Origin: Deltaproteobacteria bacterium
GTDB lineage: Bacteria > DRYD01
NCBI GenBank assembly: GCA_028276365.1
Contig: JAPYWL010000023.1
Span: 1-17,556, forward strand
Reading direction: 5' to 3'
Length of the DNA: 17,556 nt
The notes below the pieces were generated by a model that searched no databases, was not told where the DNA came from, and saw only the letters and a program-made list of their open reading frames with translations. The translations under genes were made by a program, and so were the position numbers. This document shows positions 475-13,708 of the stretch, one piece after another (within the stretch, counting starts at the first letter, position 1; each line of letters begins with the position of its first letter).

Positions 475-2007
475 TTATTTAACTTGTTGATATTCAAAAT
501 TAATAATTTGTTTTTTAGTTTTATCAATTTCTATTCCTATTAGATAAATCTTTTTATAATTTAAATATTTTTTATAATATTCTTTTTGTTCTATTTGTTT
601 TAAGGCTTTTCCTTTCTCTTTAGAATTTTTAATAACTTTAAATTCAAGGATATAAACGATAGAATTATTAACAATAATAGTTAAATCTATTCTACCTTTA
701 GAGGTATTATCTTCTGTTATAACATTTAAACCAGTAGAGTATAACATACTAAATACAGCTATTAAATAACTTGACTCTTGGTTAAAATGAACATAACTTA
801 TATTACTTATTAATATTTCAATTTGTTCTTTTAGCTTCTCTATTTCTTGTTTTTTTAATATCTCTATTATATTATCTGCTATATTTTCTCTTAAATCTTT
901 TGCTAATAAAATAGATAATATATCCTCATTAAAAGATATTCTAACTTCCTTATTTGGGAATCCTAATTTATATTCTTGTCCATACTCCTTTTGGTATTCC
1001 TCTTTTATCGTTAAATAGCCTGTTTGAAACATTAATGCCTCTATTTTGATTTCTTCTATGTCAAACTTTTCTAATATGTTGCTTTTTACTATTTTGTTTT
1101 CTAAATCTGAAACATCATATTCTTTTTTCTTTATTAGTTTTATTAAAAAAATGGGTGTTCCTGTCTTATACCAATAATTATCAAATCTCTTACTATCTAG
1201 ATATAACAAGATATCAAAGGGATTATAAAGTGTATCTTGTAGGAAGTAGTAGCCATTATACCATTCTTTAATTTCATCTAAATTTAAGTTTTGTAAATAA
1301 TCTTTAAAGTAAAGTTCTAATTCATTTTGAGTATATCCGCAAATATTACCATATCTAGGATCTAAGGAGATATCTTTTAGTTGATTTAATCCACTAAAGA
1401 GAGAGACTTTAGCAAATTTACTAACTCCTGTTATTAAAAGGAATTTGATATATTCATCTAAGCCTTTTAAGACGGAATAAAAACCTTTTAAATATTTTCG
1501 AACCTGTTCAGCTTCTTTAATGTTTTCTATTAAATCTAATATAGGCTTATCATATTCATCTATTAGTATAACTACCGGTTTTTTGTGTTTCCTATAAATA
1601 TTTATTATAAGATTTTCAAAGAGTTCAACTTCGTCTTCTGTTTTTTGAAATGTATCTAATTCATTATTAAGATAGTTTTTTAGTAATTCTTGGATTACTC
1701 TTTTTTTATAATCTTCTTTTTTAACTATATCTTTAGCAAAACTAATTCTTATTACGGGATAGATTTCATCCCAATTCCATTTATTATAAATATATAAATC
1801 TTTAAATAAGTTTTTTTGACCTTCAAAGAGGTATCTAATAGTGGAGATTAGTAAAGATTTACCGAAGCGTCTAGGCTTACTTAAAAAGTAATACCCTCCT
1901 CCTTCTGTTATTAACTTATATATATACTCTGTCTTATCAACATATATATAATTTCCTTGTATTAGTTTGTTAAAGTCGCTTATACCTATGGGTAATAATT
2001 TCTTCAT
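475..2007 (-). CDS. AAA-ATPase-like protein with PD-(D/E)XK nuclease domain (DUF1703 type)
   Basis: This 510-residue protein matches the AAA-ATPase-like/PDDEXK_9 family, which is widespread, often multicopy, and of unknown role. The N-terminal signature LPIGISDFNKL...YIYVDKTEYI is followed by an atypical P-loop, SKPRRFGKS (residues 43-51), and a Walker B, VILIDEYD (146-153). LLITGVSKF (190-198) and WYNGYYF (249-255) are also family features. The C-terminal nuclease-like core shows E411, D441 and E455-F-K457, so the putative catalytic set looks complete. The start is well supported: AAAGGGGGA sits 8 nt upstream. It lies upstream of, and on the same strand as, the putative CRISPR leader. A link to CRISPR is not implied, because this family is scattered across low-GC genomes without fixed neighbours. 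Family assignment is firm; function is unknown. Confidence 0.9.
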   Translation of the reverse strand: MKKLLPIGISDFNKLIQGNYIYVDKTEYIYKLITEGGGYYFLSKPRRFGKSLLISTIRYLFEGQKNLFKDLYIYNKWNWDEIYPVIRISFAKDIVKKEDYKKRVIQELLKNYLNNELDTFQKTEDEVELFENLIINIYRKHKKPVVILIDEYDKPILDLIENIKEAEQVRKYLKGFYSVLKGLDEYIKFLLITGVSKFAKVSLFSGLNQLKDISLDPRYGNICGYTQNELELYFKDYLQNLNLDEIKEWYNGYYFLQDTLYNPFDILLYLDSKRFDNYWYKTGTPIFLIKLIKKKEYDVSDLENKIVKSNILEKFDIEEIKIEALMFQTGYLTIKEEYQKEYGQEYKLGFPNKEVRISFNEDILSILLAKDLRENIADNIIEILKKQEIEKLKEQIEILISNISYVHFNQESSYLIAVFSMLYSTGLNVITEDNTSKGRIDLTIIVNNSIVYILEFKVIKNSKEKGKALKQIEQKEYYKKYLNYKKIYLIGIEIDKTKKQIINFEYQQVK

Positions 2008-2080: not shown

Positions 2081-2279
2081 TCTTCTAAATTCTTTTCTCT
2101 ATATTTTGTTTTATTCGTTTTTCCTAAAACAACAATTTGAAATAATTTTAAAAAATTAAAAACACTTTTTTAAGAAAAATTAAAACATTTAAAAAATAAA
2201 TATCTTAAAAAGTAAACCTTTTAATCTTAAAGGTTTTTTTGGATTATAGATTAATTTTAATATTAGAGGGTGTGGTTTT
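2081..2279. promoter_or_regulatory. Divergent intergenic region
   Basis: This stretch lies between two divergently transcribed genes, so it should hold promoters for both. I see no convincing -35/-10 pair in either direction. It contains a hairpin with a T-run at 2214-2240 and the Shine-Dalgarno site GAGGG at 2266-2270 for the prepilin gene. Confidence 0.4.
2214..2240 (+). terminator. Hairpin with T-run upstream of prepilin gene
   Basis: AAACCTTT (2214-2221) and AAAGGTTT (2229-2236) form an 8-bp stem with a 7-nt loop, and the T-run continues to 2240. This looks like a weak intrinsic terminator on the plus strand. No plus-strand gene lies upstream of it, and it ends only 39 nt before the next start codon. 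It may insulate or attenuate the prepilin transcript. Confidence 0.4.
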
Positions 2280-5200
2280 ATGAGGTTTTTTAGGAGTTTT
2301 AGTTTAAAAGGTCTTAGTTTATTTGAGATGATGGTAGCTGTTTCTATTATATTAATATTTTTTGCTGTTAGTGTTAGTTCTTTTATTTTCTTTTATTATA
2401 ATTTTAATGTATCAGATAAATATAAGGAAATATCTATATTTAGGACTGTTTATTTTGAATTATCTCGTGCTATTAGGGAAGCTTCTGTTATTAAAAGGAT
2501 ATATGATACTTACCCTAATAAAGCTATTTACCTTCAAATTGGAAACTACTTGTACTCTTATAAATTAGATACTAATAATAAAAAACTTTATAAATCAACT
2601 GATGGGGGCTATTATTTTTATCCAATTCCTAATGCTTACAATATTAAAGATATAAAATTTATAAATAAATCTTCTATGGTTTATGTTTATTTTTATACAG
2701 AGTTTAATAATACTAAACAGGAGCACGCTTTCTTAGTAAAATTAAGAAAAGAGAATAAAAACTATTTTTATTTTATTATTTCAGGAATAAATCCTACTAC
2801 TAGTTTAATAGAGTATGCTATAAGTATTAATGAGAATTCATTTACTAATTTTACTCCATTAAATCAATCTAATACTAATAATTCTTTTAATATTGATACT
2901 GAATTAGGCTCTTATAATATTGTTTTTCCCAAAAGAGGCTCATCTGCTTCTTTTTATTACCTTTTTAAAGCTTATAAAAATGATCCTAATTCTAATTGGA
3001 ATTACAAAGATTTAGATAATACTAACTCTTATTCTTATTCTCTTCCTTCTACTAATTGGGGATTAAGAACAAAGATTTTATCTGTTGGAAATTATTTATA
3101 TACAGCTTATGTTAATACTAATGAAGTTTTATATGATCCTACTGATGGACAATTTAAACAATATAATGTAGTTTATTTTGCTTATAGGAAATTAGATAGT
3201 AGTTATAAAGGGAATTGGCTTAAGAAAGAAGTTTTTAGATTTCCTACTTCATATTCTGGTTATACAATGGTTATTAGATATCCAAGAATAGCTTATGGAT
3301 TAGCTGGTGGTAATAGATTCCATATTGTCTTTTCCACTGAAAGAATTGGTGGAAGCAATGTTAATATAAACTCAGTTAATGATATGTATTATGCAGCTAG
3401 TTATGATGGAATCAATTGGAATATTATTAACTTAGATAAAAAATTAATGGGAGCTACTGAGAATAATTTGTATCCAATTGTTCCTATTGTTTTAGTGGGT
3501 AATATTTCTAATACTACTAATACTTTACACTTTTTATTTTATAATAATACTACATCTACTCCTTATAATATGCGAATCTGTTATTTTTCTACAAATGATT
3601 TAAATACTTTTTCAGGTATTCAATCTTTAAATGATCAAGCTTATTATTCAAATAATTCAAACTCAATAACCATAAATACTTTTGGGGATATGGACGCTTA
3701 CTTTTTTAATAACTCTATTAATATAGTAGTTAGTTGTAATGCTAAACCAGAAAGTCCAATAAGGCAGAAATGGGCAGGTAACAGAGATAAACTTATCTAT
3801 TTTAGGAAATCTGATTTTAATAGAACAGATTATAATTTTTATCCTGATGATGCTAATAATAGTAGTAATATTTTTACTAATTGTTCACTAATTTTAACTC
3901 AGCCAACCTATTCAGGGGATAGTGTAGGCGAAGTTCATATTGTAGGGTATTCTTCTACATCCTCAAGAATTATTTATTTAAGGAATACTTATAGCAATGC
4001 TTTAAGTAATTCTTTTACTAATTTTACTAATACTTTAACTACAGATACTTTTCCTAATTTAGATATTAATTATAGTGTAGGTACTAATACTGCTTATATC
4101 CATGTAGCTGCTTATAATAATGATTTACGAGATTTGGATTATTTTAGGATAACTTCTGCATCTCTTGGAGTTACTTTTAGTAGAATAAATAATTCTACAA
4201 TTGATGATAATCTTAATAATCAAGGTCTTTTTGCGCGAGGAGAAAATAAACAAAATGGAAGGATTCCAGGGATTATTGTTGATTCTAATAATAATTTACA
4301 TATAATTACTTATGATGTTGCTGATAGTTCTTTAGGTGAGGTTATTTATTTAAATGCTAATGGTGCTTTAACTAATACTAATAGATTTGATACACTATTA
4401 ATAGATGATGGATATCCTTATTTTAAGAGTATTAATTATGATAAAGATAATCTAAATGAGGTTATTAGTTACTATGATTTTGATACAAATACTACTCCTT
4501 CTTTACCTCTTACAGGTAGTTTAGCTGATTTAAAATTATGTATTAATGGTTTTGTAACAAGGATAGATGGACATAGAAGATTTGATACCAATACTACTAA
4601 TACTAATATTTTTAATACACCAGGTTCATACCCTTGTGGATTTTATAATGATGTAAAATTAGTCAATAATTGGATATATGTAGCTTATTCTGAACGACAA
4701 CCAACCGCTACAGGTAATTTAAGATTAAAGTTAGCAATATCGAGGGATTTAGGACAAAGCTGGAGCTATGAATATACAGATACCTCTACTTCAGATCATG
4801 CTAGAAATATTAATTTAGAGGTAACAAATAATAGAATATATATAATACATACAAATAATACTAATAATGTGTTAATAACTTATAGAGATTTTGGGAGTTC
4901 AACATGGACTACAATACCTACTACTACTATTGCTACTTATTTAAGAGCTTTTAAAGATAAAAATAATAATATTCATATTTTAGCTATTAATTCACCTTCA
5001 GCTAATTATTTATTTGTTAATACTTCTACTAATTCTGTAAATGTAGAGAATTTAAATATTAATTATTTAGAATATATAAGTAGTTTTGGGGATTTTGGAG
5101 ATATAAAAGTAGATAATGATATTAATGTTTACATAGCTATAAACACAAAAAGAGGTCCAACAAATGGTAATGATTTATTGATAAAAAGGAATAATACTTG

Positions 5201-5285
5201 GCAAGCTCCTATAAGGCTACCTAATAACACTTCTCCTATTAATTACTTCTTAAATTCTATTAGATTGGATATTGGAAATTTTTAA
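2280..5285 (+). CDS. Giant type IV prepilin-like protein with beta-propeller-like body
   Basis: This 1001-residue protein has a class III prepilin signal. After a short basic leader comes G11, then LSLFEMMVAVSIILIFF, with the expected Glu at mature position 5 (E16) and a hydrophobic helix to about residue 40. It should be cleaved and N-methylated by a prepilin peptidase and inserted into a type IV pilus or related pseudopilus. Residues 41-165 resemble a PilW/GspJ-like minor pilin. From about 170 on it is Asn/Thr/Ser-rich and repetitive, with about ten strand motifs such as NRFHIVFS (345), GEVHIVGY (550), NNLHIITY (671) and NRIYIIHT (851). A canonical Asp-box, SRDLGQSW, lies at 821-828, with a variant SYDGINW at 374-380. 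This suggests BNR/sialidase-type propeller blades, but catalytic sialidase residues are not evident. SD GAGGG sits 9 nt upstream of the ATG. Minor pilins are usually 150-300 residues, so this is very large. Tip adhesin is an inference. Confidence 0.85.
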   Translation: MRFFRSFSLKGLSLFEMMVAVSIILIFFAVSVSSFIFFYYNFNVSDKYKEISIFRTVYFELSRAIREASVIKRIYDTYPNKAIYLQIGNYLYSYKLDTNNKKLYKSTDGGYYFYPIPNAYNIKDIKFINKSSMVYVYFYTEFNNTKQEHAFLVKLRKENKNYFYFIISGINPTTSLIEYAISINENSFTNFTPLNQSNTNNSFNIDTELGSYNIVFPKRGSSASFYYLFKAYKNDPNSNWNYKDLDNTNSYSYSLPSTNWGLRTKILSVGNYLYTAYVNTNEVLYDPTDGQFKQYNVVYFAYRKLDSSYKGNWLKKEVFRFPTSYSGYTMVIRYPRIAYGLAGGNRFHIVFSTERIGGSNVNINSVNDMYYAASYDGINWNIINLDKKLMGATENNLYPIVPIVLVGNISNTTNTLHFLFYNNTTSTPYNMRICYFSTNDLNTFSGIQSLNDQAYYSNNSNSITINTFGDMDAYFFNNSINIVVSCNAKPESPIRQKWAGNRDKLIYFRKSDFNRTDYNFYPDDANNSSNIFTNCSLILTQPTYSGDSVGEVHIVGYSSTSSRIIYLRNTYSNALSNSFTNFTNTLTTDTFPNLDINYSVGTNTAYIHVAAYNNDLRDLDYFRITSASLGVTFSRINNSTIDDNLNNQGLFARGENKQNGRIPGIIVDSNNNLHIITYDVADSSLGEVIYLNANGALTNTNRFDTLLIDDGYPYFKSINYDKDNLNEVISYYDFDTNTTPSLPLTGSLADLKLCINGFVTRIDGHRRFDTNTTNTNIFNTPGSYPCGFYNDVKLVNNWIYVAYSERQPTATGNLRLKLAISRDLGQSWSYEYTDTSTSDHARNINLEVTNNRIYIIHTNNTNNVLITYRDFGSSTWTTIPTTTIATYLRAFKDKNNNIHILAINSPSANYLFVNTSTNSVNVENLNINYLEYISSFGDFGDIKVDNDINVYIAINTKRGPTNGNDLLIKRNNTWQAPIRLPNNTSPINYFLNSIRLDIGNF

Positions 5286-5365: not shown

Positions 5366-8344
5366 ATGTATTTTTTATATAATTTAAAAAATTTTGAATT
5401 AATTTTAAATGAATCAAATCTAAATCGGAGTTATTTTATTTTAGTTTTTTCTAATGATTATTTAATTCAAAATCATTATAACCTCATTAATTTTTTAAAT
5501 AATTTTCATAATAATACTGAAATTAAGAATTACCATATATTTTTGAATTATCTATTTAGTTTCATAAATTTAAAAAAATATTACCTTATAAGGGATTATT
5601 TAATTAATATACCTGTTTTTAATTATCATAATTTAAACAATTTAATTTATATTCTACAAAATTTATATAATCAAAGTGATTTTTTAGACAGGAAAATAAT
5701 ATCTGTAAATGATAAATATTCCTTAGAAGACTTTATTAATATCTTAGAAGATTTTGGATATAATAAAGCTAACTTAATTACTCAGTATTTTGAGTATAAT
5801 ACAAGAGGGAATATAGTTGATGTTTTTCCATATTTAAGTAAATATCCTATTAGGATTGAATTTGAAGATAATTACATAGAATCAATTAGGTATTTTGATA
5901 AAGAAGAATTCATTAGTATAAAAAGAATAAATAGCTTTGTTTTAATTAAGAAAAAACAAAATAATCAAATAGCTCTTGAAAATTTATTTACTCACTTTAA
6001 AAATAGAATTAATTTTATAACTGATCTATCCCAAGAATCATTTAAAAACAGAGTTTATTTTATATTAAAAAACGAATATAAATTAGAGCAAGATTTAATT
6101 AAGGATTTCCTAAATGATATTAATGTTTTTTATATAAATGATTTACTAAAGAAGAATGATTTTAATAATTTACCAGATTTAGCTTTAAAACAGAGTATAT
6201 TAGATAGTTATATCAAAAACAATTTTAAAGGATATAATATTATTTTAATTTCTCAAGATATAAAAGATTTCCTTGATTTAGATAATAAAGCTAATTATTT
6301 AAATAATAAGATAAATATTGAGATTATTAATGATTTGGAAGTAGCGGGTGGGTTTATAGATAATACTAAAAAAATAGTTATTATAACTCAAGCAGATATT
6401 AAAGGATTAATTTTTAGTGATTTATTTAATAAAAATTTAAAAAGAGATTTTATTATTGATATAGATAGATTTGAGGAAGGGGATTTAGTGGTTGTTGATA
6501 ACTTAGGGATTGGAATATACTTAGGGATAAAGAATATTGAGATAAAACCAGGTTATTATAAAGATATGGCTGCTATTCTATTTAAAAATAATCAAAAAGT
6601 TTATTTAAATATAGAGAATGTTTATATCCATAAATATATTGCTTCTAAAGAGATAAGTGATAAAATAAGGGATAAAATATTATCTAAGCCTTCATTATCT
6701 GAATGGAATAAAAAAATAAGAGAACTATATATCCAAACTAAAGATATAGCTGATACTATTTTAAAAATAAATGCAAATAGATTAAATACCAAAGGATTCA
6801 GGTTTTTTAAAACTGATTTAGAAGAAAAAGTAGCTAATGATTTTATTTATAAAGAAACCCAAGACCAGCAAAAAGCGATTAATGAAGTGTTAAAAGATTT
6901 GGAATCAGAACAACCTTCTAATAGGTTAATAATAGGTGACACAGGATACGGAAAAACAGAAATCTTAATAAGAGCTATCTCAAGAGTTATAGGTAATAAA
7001 TATAAAGTATTATTTATAGTGCCTTCTACTGTCTTAGCTTATCAACACTATAATACCTTATATAACAGATTTAACAAATATCTACCTAATTCCATAAAAC
7101 TATATTGTTCTATTGAAAAAAATTCACAAAAGAATTTAAAAGAATTTCTAAAAGATCCTGATTCACTTGTATTAGTATCTACCAATTTGGATTTAGATAA
7201 ACTAAAAAATGTTAGTGATAAAATAGGTTTGGTTATAATAGATGAAGAACATTTATTGGGATTATTATTTAAAGAGAAAGTAAAAGAAACATTTATAAGA
7301 TCTCATATATTAACAGTAAGTGCTACTCCAATTCCAAGGACTTTATTTTTATCCATTAATTCATTAATAGATACAACTATAATCTCTACTCCACCAAGTA
7401 ATTATAAACCACCATTCGTATTTTTATTTTATTTTAAAGATAGAAAAAATGCTTATGATATTATCTTATCTCTTATTTACAAACATCTACTTAACAGCAA
7501 AACAAATAAAAATCAAATGTATTATGTTAATAATAATATAGATGAACTTTATTTAATTTATAGGTATCTTTTAGAAAATTTTGATAAAAACAATATAAAA
7601 TTAAGAATGAATATTTTACATTCTAAATTATCAAAAAAATTAATTGAAAAAGTGTTCATAGATTTTATAAATGGAAAATATGATATAATATTATCAACTA
7701 CATTAATGCAATCTGGGCTGGATAATCCTAATGTAGATATTATGATAATAGATAATTCTCATTTATTGGGATTAAGTCAAATATATCAGTTAAGGGGGAG
7801 GGTTTCAAGGCAAGGTACTCAAGGATATTGCTATATATTATTTCCCGAAGATTTAGTTAATACTAAGACATTTGAAAGGATAAGTGTTTTTGAAAAGGAA
7901 AATATAAGTAATTATGATGTAGTTTTAAAGGATTTGGAATTAAGAGGCCCTGGAACATTATTATCTAAAAAACAATCAGGATATATTGATAAGATTGGGG
8001 TAATACAATACCTTAAGTTGCTTAGTAGTTATATTAATAATAAAAATGGGAGTTATGAGAATTTACCTGAGATAATAAGCGATTTACCAATGTATTTAGA
8101 CGATAGCCCCTATAAAAATATACTCTATAGAAAATTAGTATTAGCAAACACTTTAGAACAATTTGAAGAAATAAAAAAACAAATTATAGATATCTATGGT
8201 AAGAAATTATCTAAAAGTGCTCAAAACCTATTATTTGCTATTTATAACAGAATAAAATATAAGGGTAAAGCTAAAAGAATTATAATAAAAGAAGCTTTTG
8301 TAAAAGAAAAAGATAAAACAGATTATGAAATCATCTTTCAATAA
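5366..8344 (+). CDS. mfd: Transcription-repair coupling factor Mfd (divergent, short)
   Basis: Mfd removes RNA polymerase stalled at DNA lesions and recruits UvrA for nucleotide excision repair. The domain order is intact in 992 residues. A shortened UvrB-like module carries NTRGNIVDVFP (145-155) and PIRIEFEDNYIESIRYFD (161-178). An RNA-polymerase-interacting domain follows (about 368-424; EGDLVVVDNLGIGIYLG). The helicase motor has ETQDQQKAI (497-505), Walker A GDTGYGKTE (524-532), DEEH (626-629), SATPIPRT (652-659), TTLMQSGLD (778-786) and QLRGRVSR (808-815). A TRCF-type C-terminal region begins near 910. E. coli Mfd is about 1150 residues, so this one is compact. Motif drift includes TTLMQSGLD where families usually read TTIIETGID, and RGRVSR for RGRVGR. 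No Shine-Dalgarno site precedes the ATG. Its end overlaps the next gene by 20 nt. Confidence 0.95.
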   Translation: MYFLYNLKNFELILNESNLNRSYFILVFSNDYLIQNHYNLINFLNNFHNNTEIKNYHIFLNYLFSFINLKKYYLIRDYLINIPVFNYHNLNNLIYILQNLYNQSDFLDRKIISVNDKYSLEDFINILEDFGYNKANLITQYFEYNTRGNIVDVFPYLSKYPIRIEFEDNYIESIRYFDKEEFISIKRINSFVLIKKKQNNQIALENLFTHFKNRINFITDLSQESFKNRVYFILKNEYKLEQDLIKDFLNDINVFYINDLLKKNDFNNLPDLALKQSILDSYIKNNFKGYNIILISQDIKDFLDLDNKANYLNNKINIEIINDLEVAGGFIDNTKKIVIITQADIKGLIFSDLFNKNLKRDFIIDIDRFEEGDLVVVDNLGIGIYLGIKNIEIKPGYYKDMAAILFKNNQKVYLNIENVYIHKYIASKEISDKIRDKILSKPSLSEWNKKIRELYIQTKDIADTILKINANRLNTKGFRFFKTDLEEKVANDFIYKETQDQQKAINEVLKDLESEQPSNRLIIGDTGYGKTEILIRAISRVIGNKYKVLFIVPSTVLAYQHYNTLYNRFNKYLPNSIKLYCSIEKNSQKNLKEFLKDPDSLVLVSTNLDLDKLKNVSDKIGLVIIDEEHLLGLLFKEKVKETFIRSHILTVSATPIPRTLFLSINSLIDTTIISTPPSNYKPPFVFLFYFKDRKNAYDIILSLIYKHLLNSKTNKNQMYYVNNNIDELYLIYRYLLENFDKNNIKLRMNILHSKLSKKLIEKVFIDFINGKYDIILSTTLMQSGLDNPNVDIMIIDNSHLLGLSQIYQLRGRVSRQGTQGYCYILFPEDLVNTKTFERISVFEKENISNYDVVLKDLELRGPGTLLSKKQSGYIDKIGVIQYLKLLSSYINNKNGSYENLPEIISDLPMYLDDSPYKNILYRKLVLANTLEQFEEIKKQIIDIYGKKLSKSAQNLLFAIYNRIKYKGKAKRIIIKEAFVKEKDKTDYEIIFQ

Positions 8345-9294: not shown

Positions 9295-11136
9295 ATGGAT
9301 AGCATATTTAAAAATATGCTACTAAATTTCAGAACTTTAATTATTTATATAATAGTTTTTGTTTTTATTTTTGTTTTAGGTATATCTTATGTATTTGCGG
9401 GGGTTGATCTAATAGAGAAAAAAGAAGGTAATTTTATTGTTTATTATGCTAAAATTAATAAAACACTTACTAAGGTTTTTTATATCCATAAAAATTATTA
9501 CTCAAGAAATATAATAGAAACTTTAAATTATTTTAATCAAGGAAATATCTCTTATAAAGATATAAAATATACTTATGATGATTATAGCGGAGTTTATAAT
9601 GTTTTACTGAAAAATAGAAAATTAGTAGGTATTAATAAGGATTTAGCTTTTTTAAGTGGATATTATTCTAAAGAAGCATTATTAAACAGTTATTTAAATT
9701 TATTAAAGAAATATATTGATTTACTACCCCCTGTATTCTTTGAAAAAAATTATTTATTAGCTATAGTAAATAAAGATTATTATTTAAAGGTAATTAAAAA
9801 GGATAATATAGTCTTTAATATATTAACTAATGAAAATTTAGAAGTAAATTTAATAAGTGATAATTTATTCAAAATAATTCCTAAAAAACCCGGAAACTAT
9901 AATTTGAAATTAGTTGTTAATAAAGATAATAATATTTTTGAAGATGAGATAATTATAGATTCTAAAATCCCTGCTTTTGAATTACCTTTTAATGAATATT
10001 TTATTTCCTATTCTACTGATTTTAATTACCTAAAGAAAATAAATTGGTTTAATAATCTCATTTTACCTAATATAATTTATTATAAGGATACTAATTTGAA
10101 ATATGAGTATAAATTTAAAAATAATAGTTTAAAGTATTATATTTTTCCTGAAGAATTAAATAGTAATGAAAGACTAATTAATGGGATTTACTATTTTAAT
10201 AAGGAAAAAGTTGTTTTAAATTTTGAGCATCAAAAAATTTATAATCCTATTGATTTCGATTATTTAATAATATCAAATAATCCTGAAAAGATTTCATCTG
10301 AAGGTATATTATATGAGAACTATTTACAAGAAGATGCTAATTATTTTATCTGGTTTCATCATTTATTCTTAAATAATAAAAATTTTATTGTTGAACTTAG
10401 TAATGAGGGTGATTATAAAATAAATATAAATTATTATTTAGATTATAGTATATCAAATAGTGAGATACAAAGCGGGATTAATGCTTCTTATTCGTTTTTT
10501 GATTTTATTAATAATAATAGGTTTATTAATTTAAATATAAGACCTAAAAGTAGAATATTTTTAGTTTGCGAAAATATTTCAAAAGATAATGTTTTAACTG
10601 GTTTTATTTACTTAAAATCTAAAAAAATACTTAAAATTAAAATTTATACATTAAATAATAAATTTGAATTCAATAAAGAATTAAATTATTTGATTAGCGA
10701 TAATTCGCCAAGATCTACAGGGAAATTTGAAAAACCTTTTATTCAAAAGGAATTAACTTTTTATGTATCTAATCCCTTTTACTCAATTAGAATACCATCA
10801 AAAGAAGAAGAATTAAAATTAGCTAATTTTAATAATTATAATAAAAATAACCTCAATTATTCTAATTATGGGGTACTTTATAAGGTAAAAATTAATATTG
10901 TTAATAATACATTAAATAAGCAGAAGGTTTTTTTATATGCTTCAAGTGTTTCAGGCTATACCCCTTTTGTATTCCTATATAAAGGTAATATCTATAGAGT
11001 GGATTCAGGAATGTATAAAAATCTTCTTACATTTTACTTAGAACCTAATGAAGAAATTAATGAAAGTATTTATTTTCTTATAACACCTGGTTTGTTTTAT
11101 CCTATTGAATTAGAATTAACTACTAATAAACTATAA
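9295..11136 (+). CDS. Secreted or membrane-anchored unknown protein
   Basis: This is a 613-residue protein with one N-terminal hydrophobic segment (about residues 15-35, ending GISYVFAG) that could be a signal peptide or anchor. Everything after it looks extracytoplasmic and rich in beta strands. Residues 36-145 hold an alpha/beta module (YYSRNIIETLNYFNQG...). About 175-222 looks like a small Ig-like beta domain ending in KPGNYNLKLVV. The C-terminal third carries SPRSTGKFEKPF (471-482), NYGVLYKVKI (524-533) and TPGLFYPIEL (597-606). From memory, similar motifs (RGTF and NYGV within a beta sandwich) occur in uncharacterised secreted proteins of low-GC Firmicutes; this is weak. No Shine-Dalgarno site is present. 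M8 is an alternative start. Likely a cell-surface protein, function unknown. Confidence 0.75.
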   Translation: MDSIFKNMLLNFRTLIIYIIVFVFIFVLGISYVFAGVDLIEKKEGNFIVYYAKINKTLTKVFYIHKNYYSRNIIETLNYFNQGNISYKDIKYTYDDYSGVYNVLLKNRKLVGINKDLAFLSGYYSKEALLNSYLNLLKKYIDLLPPVFFEKNYLLAIVNKDYYLKVIKKDNIVFNILTNENLEVNLISDNLFKIIPKKPGNYNLKLVVNKDNNIFEDEIIIDSKIPAFELPFNEYFISYSTDFNYLKKINWFNNLILPNIIYYKDTNLKYEYKFKNNSLKYYIFPEELNSNERLINGIYYFNKEKVVLNFEHQKIYNPIDFDYLIISNNPEKISSEGILYENYLQEDANYFIWFHHLFLNNKNFIVELSNEGDYKININYYLDYSISNSEIQSGINASYSFFDFINNNRFINLNIRPKSRIFLVCENISKDNVLTGFIYLKSKKILKIKIYTLNNKFEFNKELNYLISDNSPRSTGKFEKPFIQKELTFYVSNPFYSIRIPSKEEELKLANFNNYNKNNLNYSNYGVLYKVKINIVNNTLNKQKVFLYASSVSGYTPFVFLYKGNIYRVDSGMYKNLLTFYLEPNEEINESIYFLITPGLFYPIELELTTNKL

Positions 11137-12444: not shown

Positions 12445-12891
12445 TTATTGTTGTTGAATAAGTTCAAGTGCTTTAGTAGCCATATTTTTAATTGATTCTA
12501 CTACACTTGTATTAGCTTCATACATTCTAGAAGCTTGTATCATCTTAGCCATCTCTTCTACTACATTAACATTAGGTAGAGTTACATAGCCGTCTTTATC
12601 AGCATTGGGATTAGTAGGATCATATACCTTTCTAAATCCATTATTTGCTTCTTTAACACCAACTACTTCAACCCCTGCTACTTTTTTTTCATATTCTTCA
12701 TCAAAACTAACTGTAAGTATATCATCATTTTCGTTTAGGTCCTTAGCGGCTACGACTACATCCTTTCGTTTATAAGGTTCTCCAGATATGGTCATAGTGG
12801 TATTTGCATTAGCTATATTTTCTGCTACTACATCCATCATTTGTCTACTAGCACTCATCCCTGTTGCTGCTATTTTTAAAGCATCAAACAT
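12445..12891 (-). CDS. flgC: Flagellar basal-body rod protein FlgC
   Basis: FlgC is a proximal rod subunit of the flagellar basal body, exported by the flagellar type III system. The 148-residue protein has the diagnostic N-terminus MFDALKIAATGMSASRQMMDVVAENIANANTT-like pattern, followed by GEPYKRKDVVV. The C-terminus carries YVTLPNVNVVEEMAKMIQASRMYEANTSVVES-like family sequence and ends KALELIQQQ. AGGAGGGG (12907-12900) lies 8 nt upstream of the ATG. It is the last gene of the flgB-fliE-flgC set. No further flagellar gene follows on this strand, because htpX converges from the other side. Confidence 0.95.
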   Translation of the reverse strand: MFDALKIAATGMSASRQMMDVVAENIANANTTMTISGEPYKRKDVVVAAKDLNENDDILTVSFDEEYEKKVAGVEVVGVKEANNGFRKVYDPTNPNADKDGYVTLPNVNVVEEMAKMIQASRMYEANTSVVESIKNMATKALELIQQQ

Positions 12892-12944
12892 ACTTAATAC
12901 CCCTCCTTTTTATAAACTATTTAAAGTTATATAAAAAATAAAAA

Positions 12945-13262
12945 TTATATATTAGTTTGGAATAGGGTTTTAGCTCCTTCTATAAGTTTTTGGGCTATTC
13001 CTTTTGTCATCTTTAATAATAATCCAGCTTCTTGCCAAGCAAAAACTACTTGGTTTATATCTTTTACTTCTCCACTTGCTACTTTCCTACTCATTTCACC
13101 AGCTTCTAATAATTTATTATTAACATTTCCAACTACATTATTAAATAATTGACTAAAAGTGCCTATTCCTTGAGTTTCTTTTGATTCTTCAGTTTTAAAA
13201 GGATTAGCTATTTTTTCTGGTTTTACTATATTAAAGTTAGTTAAATTATCGTTTATATTCAT
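12945..13262 (-). CDS. fliE: Flagellar hook-basal body protein FliE
   Basis: FliE joins the MS ring to the rod and is needed early in flagellar export. The 105-residue protein fits the family in length and C-terminal pattern: GTFSQLFNNVVGNVNNK (residues 33-49), then ASGEVKDINQVVFAWQEAGLLLKM (62-85) and a final helix. The usual end, YQEIMRMQI, is here LFQTNI, a modest divergence. The first 30 residues are variable, as in other FliE proteins. A strong SD, AGGGGTGA (13274-13267), precedes the ATG. It sits between flgB and flgC, whereas the common order is flgB-flgC-fliE. Confidence 0.9.
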   Translation of the reverse strand: MNINDNLTNFNIVKPEKIANPFKTEESKETQGIGTFSQLFNNVVGNVNNKLLEAGEMSRKVASGEVKDINQVVFAWQEAGLLLKMTKGIAQKLIEGAKTLFQTNI

Positions 13263-13300
13263 ATAATCACCCCTTTTTTATTTATTTAATTTTATTTAAT

Positions 13301-13708
13301 TTACATTCTTTCAAATATTTCGGTTAAGCTTTTTAAGGGAGAGGAAGCTCCTTTTAATAATAGTTGATATTTTATTTGGTTTTCAAGGACTTTATTCATT
13401 TCTTCATTAATATCAGGTCTTTTACCTAGAGATTCAGCTTCAGGATTATAACTTGCTAATTCTACATCATTGGTTATATGACCTTCTTCATCTGCTTGTA
13501 ATTTGACGTTAAATGGATCATTTTTGTTATCTATTTCTTTTCTAATTTCAGCAAAAACTTGTTCAAAATTTAAGTCTTTAGCAACATAATTAGGATTAGA
13601 TACATTAGCTATATTACTTGCTATAACTTGTTGTCTTTGCCAAGCTGCATCTAACGCTTTTCTCATATACTCATAGTGATCTCCAAATAATTCATTCATA
13701 AAATTCAT
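13301..13708 (-). CDS. flgB: Flagellar basal-body rod protein FlgB
   Basis: FlgB is the innermost proximal rod subunit. The 135-residue protein has the family N-terminal helix with WQRQQVIASNIANVSNPNYVAKDLNFE (residues 23-49) and a C-terminal ENQIKYQLLLKGASSPLKSLTEIF helix. A near-perfect Shine-Dalgarno site, GGAGGTGA (13722-13715), stands 6 nt from the chosen ATG. M4 is a possible but less well-spaced alternative. It is the first rod gene of the set. The glycosyltransferase gene upstream on the same strand is 130 nt away, in an AT-rich gap where I see no clear promoter. Confidence 0.94.
   Translation of the reverse strand: MNFMNELFGDHYEYMRKALDAAWQRQQVIASNIANVSNPNYVAKDLNFEQVFAEIRKEIDNKNDPFNVKLQADEEGHITNDVELASYNPEAESLGKRPDINEEMNKVLENQIKYQLLLKGASSPLKSLTEIFERM

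Follow-up and report, generated by a model that had tools for sequence, protein, structure and literature searches.

Modular pilins carry a functional module grafted onto a type IV pilin and are thought to serve as tip effectors of the filament (PMC8179133, PMC9934059), and 264 such architectures were counted in 2021 (PMC8179133). PilB and PilC of Streptococcus sanguinis combine a class III signal and a short pilin module with a large C-terminal module (vWA, or Ig plus a ConA-like lectin; about 50 kDa), and PilB was modelled to fit at the filament tip only (PMC8179133, PMC9934059). A design similar to that of the protein described here was published in 2025 for a saccharibacterium, Nanosynbacter lyticus TM7x, whose pilin PilX2 bears a beta-propeller at its C-terminus. 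Its deletion roughly halves host binding, and PilX2 is a candidate pilus adhesin; it has one seven-bladed RCC1-type propeller, no predicted PilD signal and a gene within a pilus locus (PMC12206443). ComZ of Thermus thermophilus is likewise an oversized minor pilin argued to be tip-only, in this case a DNA receptor of about 550 amino acids with a beta-solenoid inserted in the pilin sheet (PMC6561018). Proteins of the PilC/PilY1 family (PF05567/IPR008707) work in a comparable way, as beta-propeller adhesins held at the pilus tip by minor pilins, but are not pilins themselves.

We analysed a 17,556-nucleotide stretch of a deltaproteobacterial genome (hereafter the window), in which positions 2280..5285 of the plus strand form a single open frame of exactly 1001 codons encoding a 1001-residue prepilin, preceded by a likely ribosome-binding site (AGAGGG, 2265..2270, plus strand, 9 bases 5' of the ATG). 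Like S. sanguinis PilB and PilC, the protein joins a class III signal and a short pilin module to a large C-terminal module, but it is far larger (about 110 kDa), carries about 13 propeller-type repeats and is encoded outside any pilus operon. It differs from PilX2 in its canonical signal, its Asp-box character, its roughly two putative propellers and its stand-alone gene, and from ComZ in having a C-terminal propeller-type module rather than an inserted solenoid. The PilY1 propeller family gave no match to the giant prepilin, its body included, at E<=1.

The N-terminus, MRFFRSFSLKG followed by LSLFEMMVAVSIILIFF (in the longer stretch, MRFFRSFSLKG followed by LSLFEMMVAVSIILIFFAV), is a class III prepilin signal with a short charged leader ending in Gly(-1), a hydrophobic stretch and Glu at +5 after cleavage. 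A cleavage site with Glu+5 is the mark of filament subunits. The leader peptide comprises residues 1-11 (2280..2312, plus strand), and residues 12-41 (2313..2402, plus strand) hold LSLFE with Glu+5 and the hydrophobic alpha1-N segment. Pfam N_methyl matched residues 10-30 at 14-17 bits, under the curated cut-off of 21.2, and matched all four available N-termini; the signal G-[LA]-[ST]-L-x-E was retained in every orthologue that reaches the N-terminus. The perfect prepilin signal (G11, LSLFE) reported by the first-pass annotation was thus upheld by both sequence and conservation, as was its remark on unusual size, the median of the 26 N_methyl frames in the same genome being about 193 amino acids. 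From the alignment and a dN/dS of 0.10, residues 42-171 (2403..2792, plus strand) are the putative remainder of the pilin module, with a helix (FELSRAIREA) followed by a beta-rich head. The pilin module ends near residue 171, and the 13 repeats that follow make up the non-pilus-specific C-terminal domain that defines a modular pilin.

Full-length orthologues were found in G001, which shares the genus of the window (1030 aa, 74% identity; on a contig that is apparently the public record CAKZQG010000041.1) and in one of another genus (G002; 1010 aa, 46% identity), and fragments at contig ends were found in two more (G003, 42% identity; G005, 39% identity). No orthologue matched in G004, which is 71% complete, or in G006, which belongs to a different family. 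When the two closest copies were compared, dN/dS was about 0.25 across the reading frame and about 0.10 within the pilin module, indicating purifying selection. Because the orthologues lie in four other genomes with differing surroundings, the junction between N-terminus and body is no assembly artefact, a possibility that the first-pass annotation had named as one that would overturn its reading. Searches with the body and with the full-length protein across two genome sets that overlap (about 386 genomes) returned, outside the family, weak Asp-box or prepilin matches only. A 1135-residue prepilin of G006 was considered as a distant orthologue and rejected, its body being unrelated by BLAST. 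That protein (contig C66, L068:1048-4452) is a second giant prepilin, of a sister family, and besides N_methyl had no Pfam match above cut-off.

From about residue 200 the body, some 800 residues long, can be read as 13 four-strand units of 41-59 residues with a mean spacing of about 61 residues and a typical pattern of xIxVxxxNxIHIxYxxx...xLxYxxSxDxxxW. An automatic search placed the unit anchors at residues 212, 295, 347, 416, 480, 552, 607, 673, 727, 799, 853, 898 and 950. In a leave-one-out test, a profile built from 12 units was scored on the thirteenth, with 12 column-shuffled alignments subjected to the same anchor choice as controls. The observed mean of 9.1 bits exceeded all 12 controls (3.5-7.4), with some residual bias since the anchor pattern was drawn up with the protein already known; with units placed by eye, the mean was 9.3 bits, against 3.4-4.6 in shuffles. 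HHalign self-comparison of the protein did not clearly reveal the repeats, and the repeat assignment therefore rests on the leave-one-out test, which bears out the repeated strand motifs noticed by the first-pass annotation. Repeats 1-6 (residues 203-584; 2886..4031, plus strand) span 2886-3023, 3069-3245, 3276-3443, 3477-3632, 3687-3845 and 3879-4031 and would form a first propeller; repeats 7-13 (residues 592-982; 4053..5225, plus strand) span 4053-4193, 4263-4409, 4416-4571, 4641-4784, 4800-4925, 4935-5057 and 5094-5225 and would form a second. Two propellers of about six and seven blades are the most natural reading of the 13 units, although we infer the boundary between them.

The canonical Asp-box that had been read at residues 821-828 (SRDLGQSW; 4740..4763, plus strand) held up: it is a strict motif expected 0.0002 times in shuffled sequence, lies at the C-D turn of its unit and is conserved in four orthologues (counterparts SKDLGQTW, SVDGGQSW and SSDKGQTW). 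Looser Asp-boxes occur at residues 374 and 437 and, within the pilin module, at 106, where G002 has the strict form SIDGGYTW. Between repeats 9 and 10, a highly conserved loop, TRIDGHRRFDTN (residues 760-771; 4557..4592, plus strand), with residues invariant in four sequences, is a candidate ligand or ion site. Residues 983-1001 (5226..5282, plus strand) form a conserved terminal strand, NYFLNSIRLDIG, that by eye resembles the repeat A-strands and could possibly close the ring.

Sequence comparison of the body with Pfam, NCBIfam and the PDB gave no family above threshold. BNR_2 scored 12.2 bits against a cut-off of 31.4, and the BNR family test (PF02012, PF13088) gave a best E of 0.055, in two of five members. 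Protein, body, pilin and blade profiles searched against PDB sequences gave weak matches only (arabinofuranosidase, xyloglucanase, geopilin, myocilin and trans-sialidase). When the body profile was run against 386 genomes, three proteins outside the family were each matched at the Asp-box unit; all three carry Asp-box-type motifs and resemble sialidase-like propellers, and, judged by E-value, at least one of them may be a chance match, but it is unlikely that their shared Asp-box character is due to chance.

AlphaFold2 models were built from two sequences, an input that probably accounts for most of their low confidence. The full-length model (pLDDT 34) was unusable for a blade count, and its best matches, proteins with several propellers (EMC1 and DDB1 among them), were given little weight. 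The model of residues 578-1001 had a pLDDT of 44, reaching 60-86 only around residues 788-890, where successive strands agreed with the units derived from sequence; neither model contained a closed propeller ring. Among the 50 best Foldseek matches of the 578-1001 model in the PDB, the folds recognisable from their titles were beta-propellers: SAKe six-bladed designs, GH43, GH62, GH117, sortilin, kelch, WD40, neuraminidase/sialidase and the six-bladed lectin AofleA. Probabilities for the propeller matches were mostly 0.94-1.00, and TM-scores stayed at about 0.2-0.27 of the query, low values that reflect the partial order of the model. VIA-align gave a top Z of 9.7, to propeller-containing proteins, with Z values of 8-10 barely exceeding those of models that lack a clear match. 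The body shares its Asp-box, blade pattern and fold matches with BNR/Asp-box propellers such as sialidases and the sortilin Vps10p domain, but not an over-threshold sequence match or a conserved sialidase RIP motif. The propeller-like body proposed by the first-pass annotation was thus favoured by the repeats, the Asp-box and the named folds, whereas its blades could not be counted in models of such low confidence. Taken together, the leave-one-out repeats, the Asp-box and the Foldseek and VIA-align results on a low-confidence model argue that the body is very probably a beta-propeller structure, a fold that is well supported for the C-terminal half and suggested by the repeat pattern for the N-terminal half.

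The gene is present in one copy in its genome, stands alone and adjoins no pilus gene. Upstream, in divergent orientation, lies an AAA-ATPase_like/PDDEXK_9 gene (475-2007, minus strand), and downstream, on the same strand, an Mfd-like helicase gene starts at 5366. Neighbours vary from genus to genus: with genes named by eye, an mfd-like gene adjoins the orthologue in one, and murE-like and magnesium-chelatase-like genes in the other. AAA-ATPase_like/PDDEXK_9 genes are expanded, often in tandem (window 475-2007, minus strand; L007:4264-8864; L079:6895-10000); G001 has three in tandem, and in the genus of the window such genes adjoin the giant prepilin. Elsewhere in the window, 9295-11136 (plus strand) encodes a 613-residue protein with a hydrophobic N-terminal segment that is kept in G001 and has a weak DUF3370 match only, and flagellar rod genes resembling flgC, fliE and flgB by eye lie at 12445-13708 (minus strand); the organism probably has flagella besides type IV pili.

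A search for pilus assembly genes, suggested at first reading, was positive. The genome encodes one prepilin peptidase (PilD; PF01478), about six PilC-type platform frames (PF00482), two secretins (PF00263), PilB/PilT-type ATPases (PF00437) and 26 prepilin frames, so that peptidase and assembly platform occur in the same genome, and such machinery could display the giant prepilin. Every genome of the order has a single prepilin peptidase and one or two secretins, together with several platform proteins of the T2SSF type, PilB-like ATPases, several ATPases of the PilT-like kind and between 9 and 33 prepilin frames. Some genomes of 1.6-1.9 Mb in this poorly known lineage, including that of the window and its relatives, hold about 26-33 prepilin frames with about six platform proteins and several PilT-like ATPases. 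Many prepilins are paired or tripled with a larger third protein, GspI/J/K- or PilV/W/X-like by eye. PilY1 (PF05567) had no match in seven genomes, a result of limited force as 14 control genomes likewise gave none over the cut-off.

Other prepilins of the lineage, of 422-455 amino acids, end in a Hint (hedgehog/intein-like) module that follows a Thr-rich or Gly-rich linker (L069:6312-7676, minus strand, on contig C20 of the same genome; G001:C15, L113; G001:C5, L115; G002:C6, L114). In the copy from the genome of the window the module matched PF01079 at E 6e-9. These modules have a Cys at their start and a TPNHPL block, and a hydrophobic segment lies at the protein C-terminus; Hint may be a self-processing module on a pilin. 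A literature search found no description of Hint-bearing pilins.

On balance we consider it reasonably likely that the giant prepilin is a type IV minor pilin of the modular kind, with two tandem Asp-box/BNR-type propellers that form a binding module displayed at the filament tip. The single prepilin peptidase would cut after Gly11, and the hydrophobic alpha1 helix would then place the subunit in a type IV filament, leaving the C-terminal module, with its approximately 13 blade-like repeats folded as two tandem propellers, exposed outside the cell. The module would most plausibly sit at the tip, since it is too large to fit easily in the helical lattice; size and the precedent of related pilins both point to this location. 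By analogy, it would act in binding, as an adhesin or receptor, and one polypeptide would do the job that elsewhere falls to minor pilins and a separate propeller protein, PilY1. A more tentative extension, which we regard as possible but doubtful, is that a PilY1-less lineage moved the tip-propeller function into one giant two-propeller pilin, giving a self-contained, operon-independent receptor suited to any of the several type IV pilus machines of the lineage.

Low model confidence and the lack of any sequence family over threshold would also suit a body of non-propeller repetitive beta-structure, for instance small beta-sandwiches or solenoid units strung together. Four-strand units of 41-59 residues, the location of an Asp-box at the C-D turn, and named-fold Foldseek matches that are propellers do not fit a solenoid or Ig-like arrangement, and we judge this very unlikely. 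If the body does consist of propellers, these could instead be sialidase-like or belong to another glycoside hydrolase or lyase, making the protein an extracellular enzyme that acts on external polymers while anchored to a pilus or pseudopilus. The closest-ranked folds are often glycoside hydrolases and sialidases, Asp-boxes are common in sialidases, and predicted peptidase modules have been reported on modular pilins (PMC8179133). Yet many of the propeller matches, equally good, are non-enzymes, and no enzyme family was found over threshold in Pfam, NCBIfam or PDB sequences. As to GH33 sialidases, which have a conserved RIP motif with the catalytic Arg, the sole RIP-like motif of the protein (residues 661-663) is replaced by VMN and VMS in the second genus, and no family match pointed to them either. 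Over the residues compared (333-1001), E687 is the sole Glu that never varies; it falls inside a predicted strand, and no invariant Glu lies near an obvious pocket. The unconserved RIP-like motif and the near absence of invariant Glu in that region make an enzyme less likely, and we think it quite unlikely.

It is also conceivable that the protein is not a filament subunit, and that its pilin-like N-terminus is a membrane anchor or inner-membrane assembly primer, the body being a periplasmic scaffold or pilus-assembly initiation factor. Such a role would agree with the large size and the single-copy, stand-alone gene, and in Myxococcus pilus assembly is primed by minor pilins together with PilY1 (PMC7541494). 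Conservation of the Glu+5 cleavage site in all N-termini speaks against it, as does the view that modular pilins of such kind are exposed at the tip (PMC8179133), and we regard it as unlikely. Of these readings we retain the tip-displayed modular minor pilin.

The first-pass annotation had singled out this gene as a candidate for an undescribed surface system, a description that proved too strong: the modular-pilin strategy is known, a pilin-propeller fusion was published with PilX2 (PMC12206443), and the gene stands alone. The giant prepilin belongs to the known kind of modular pilins, and an N_methyl plus BNR architecture may already be among the 264 that were counted (PMC8179133). What sets it apart is its size, its probable double Asp-box-type propeller, its canonical signal, its lone gene and its lineage. 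With this protein the modular-pilin principle reaches a module size of about 800 residues, probably comprising two propellers. The protein also supports the view that fusions between pilins and PilY1-like tip propellers arose more than once, the other case seen being PilX2 of Saccharibacteria; if so, a propeller at the tip would be a convergent design. A count of about 26 prepilin frames within 1.6 Mb makes this pilus-rich and apparently uncultured lineage a promising source of further modules.
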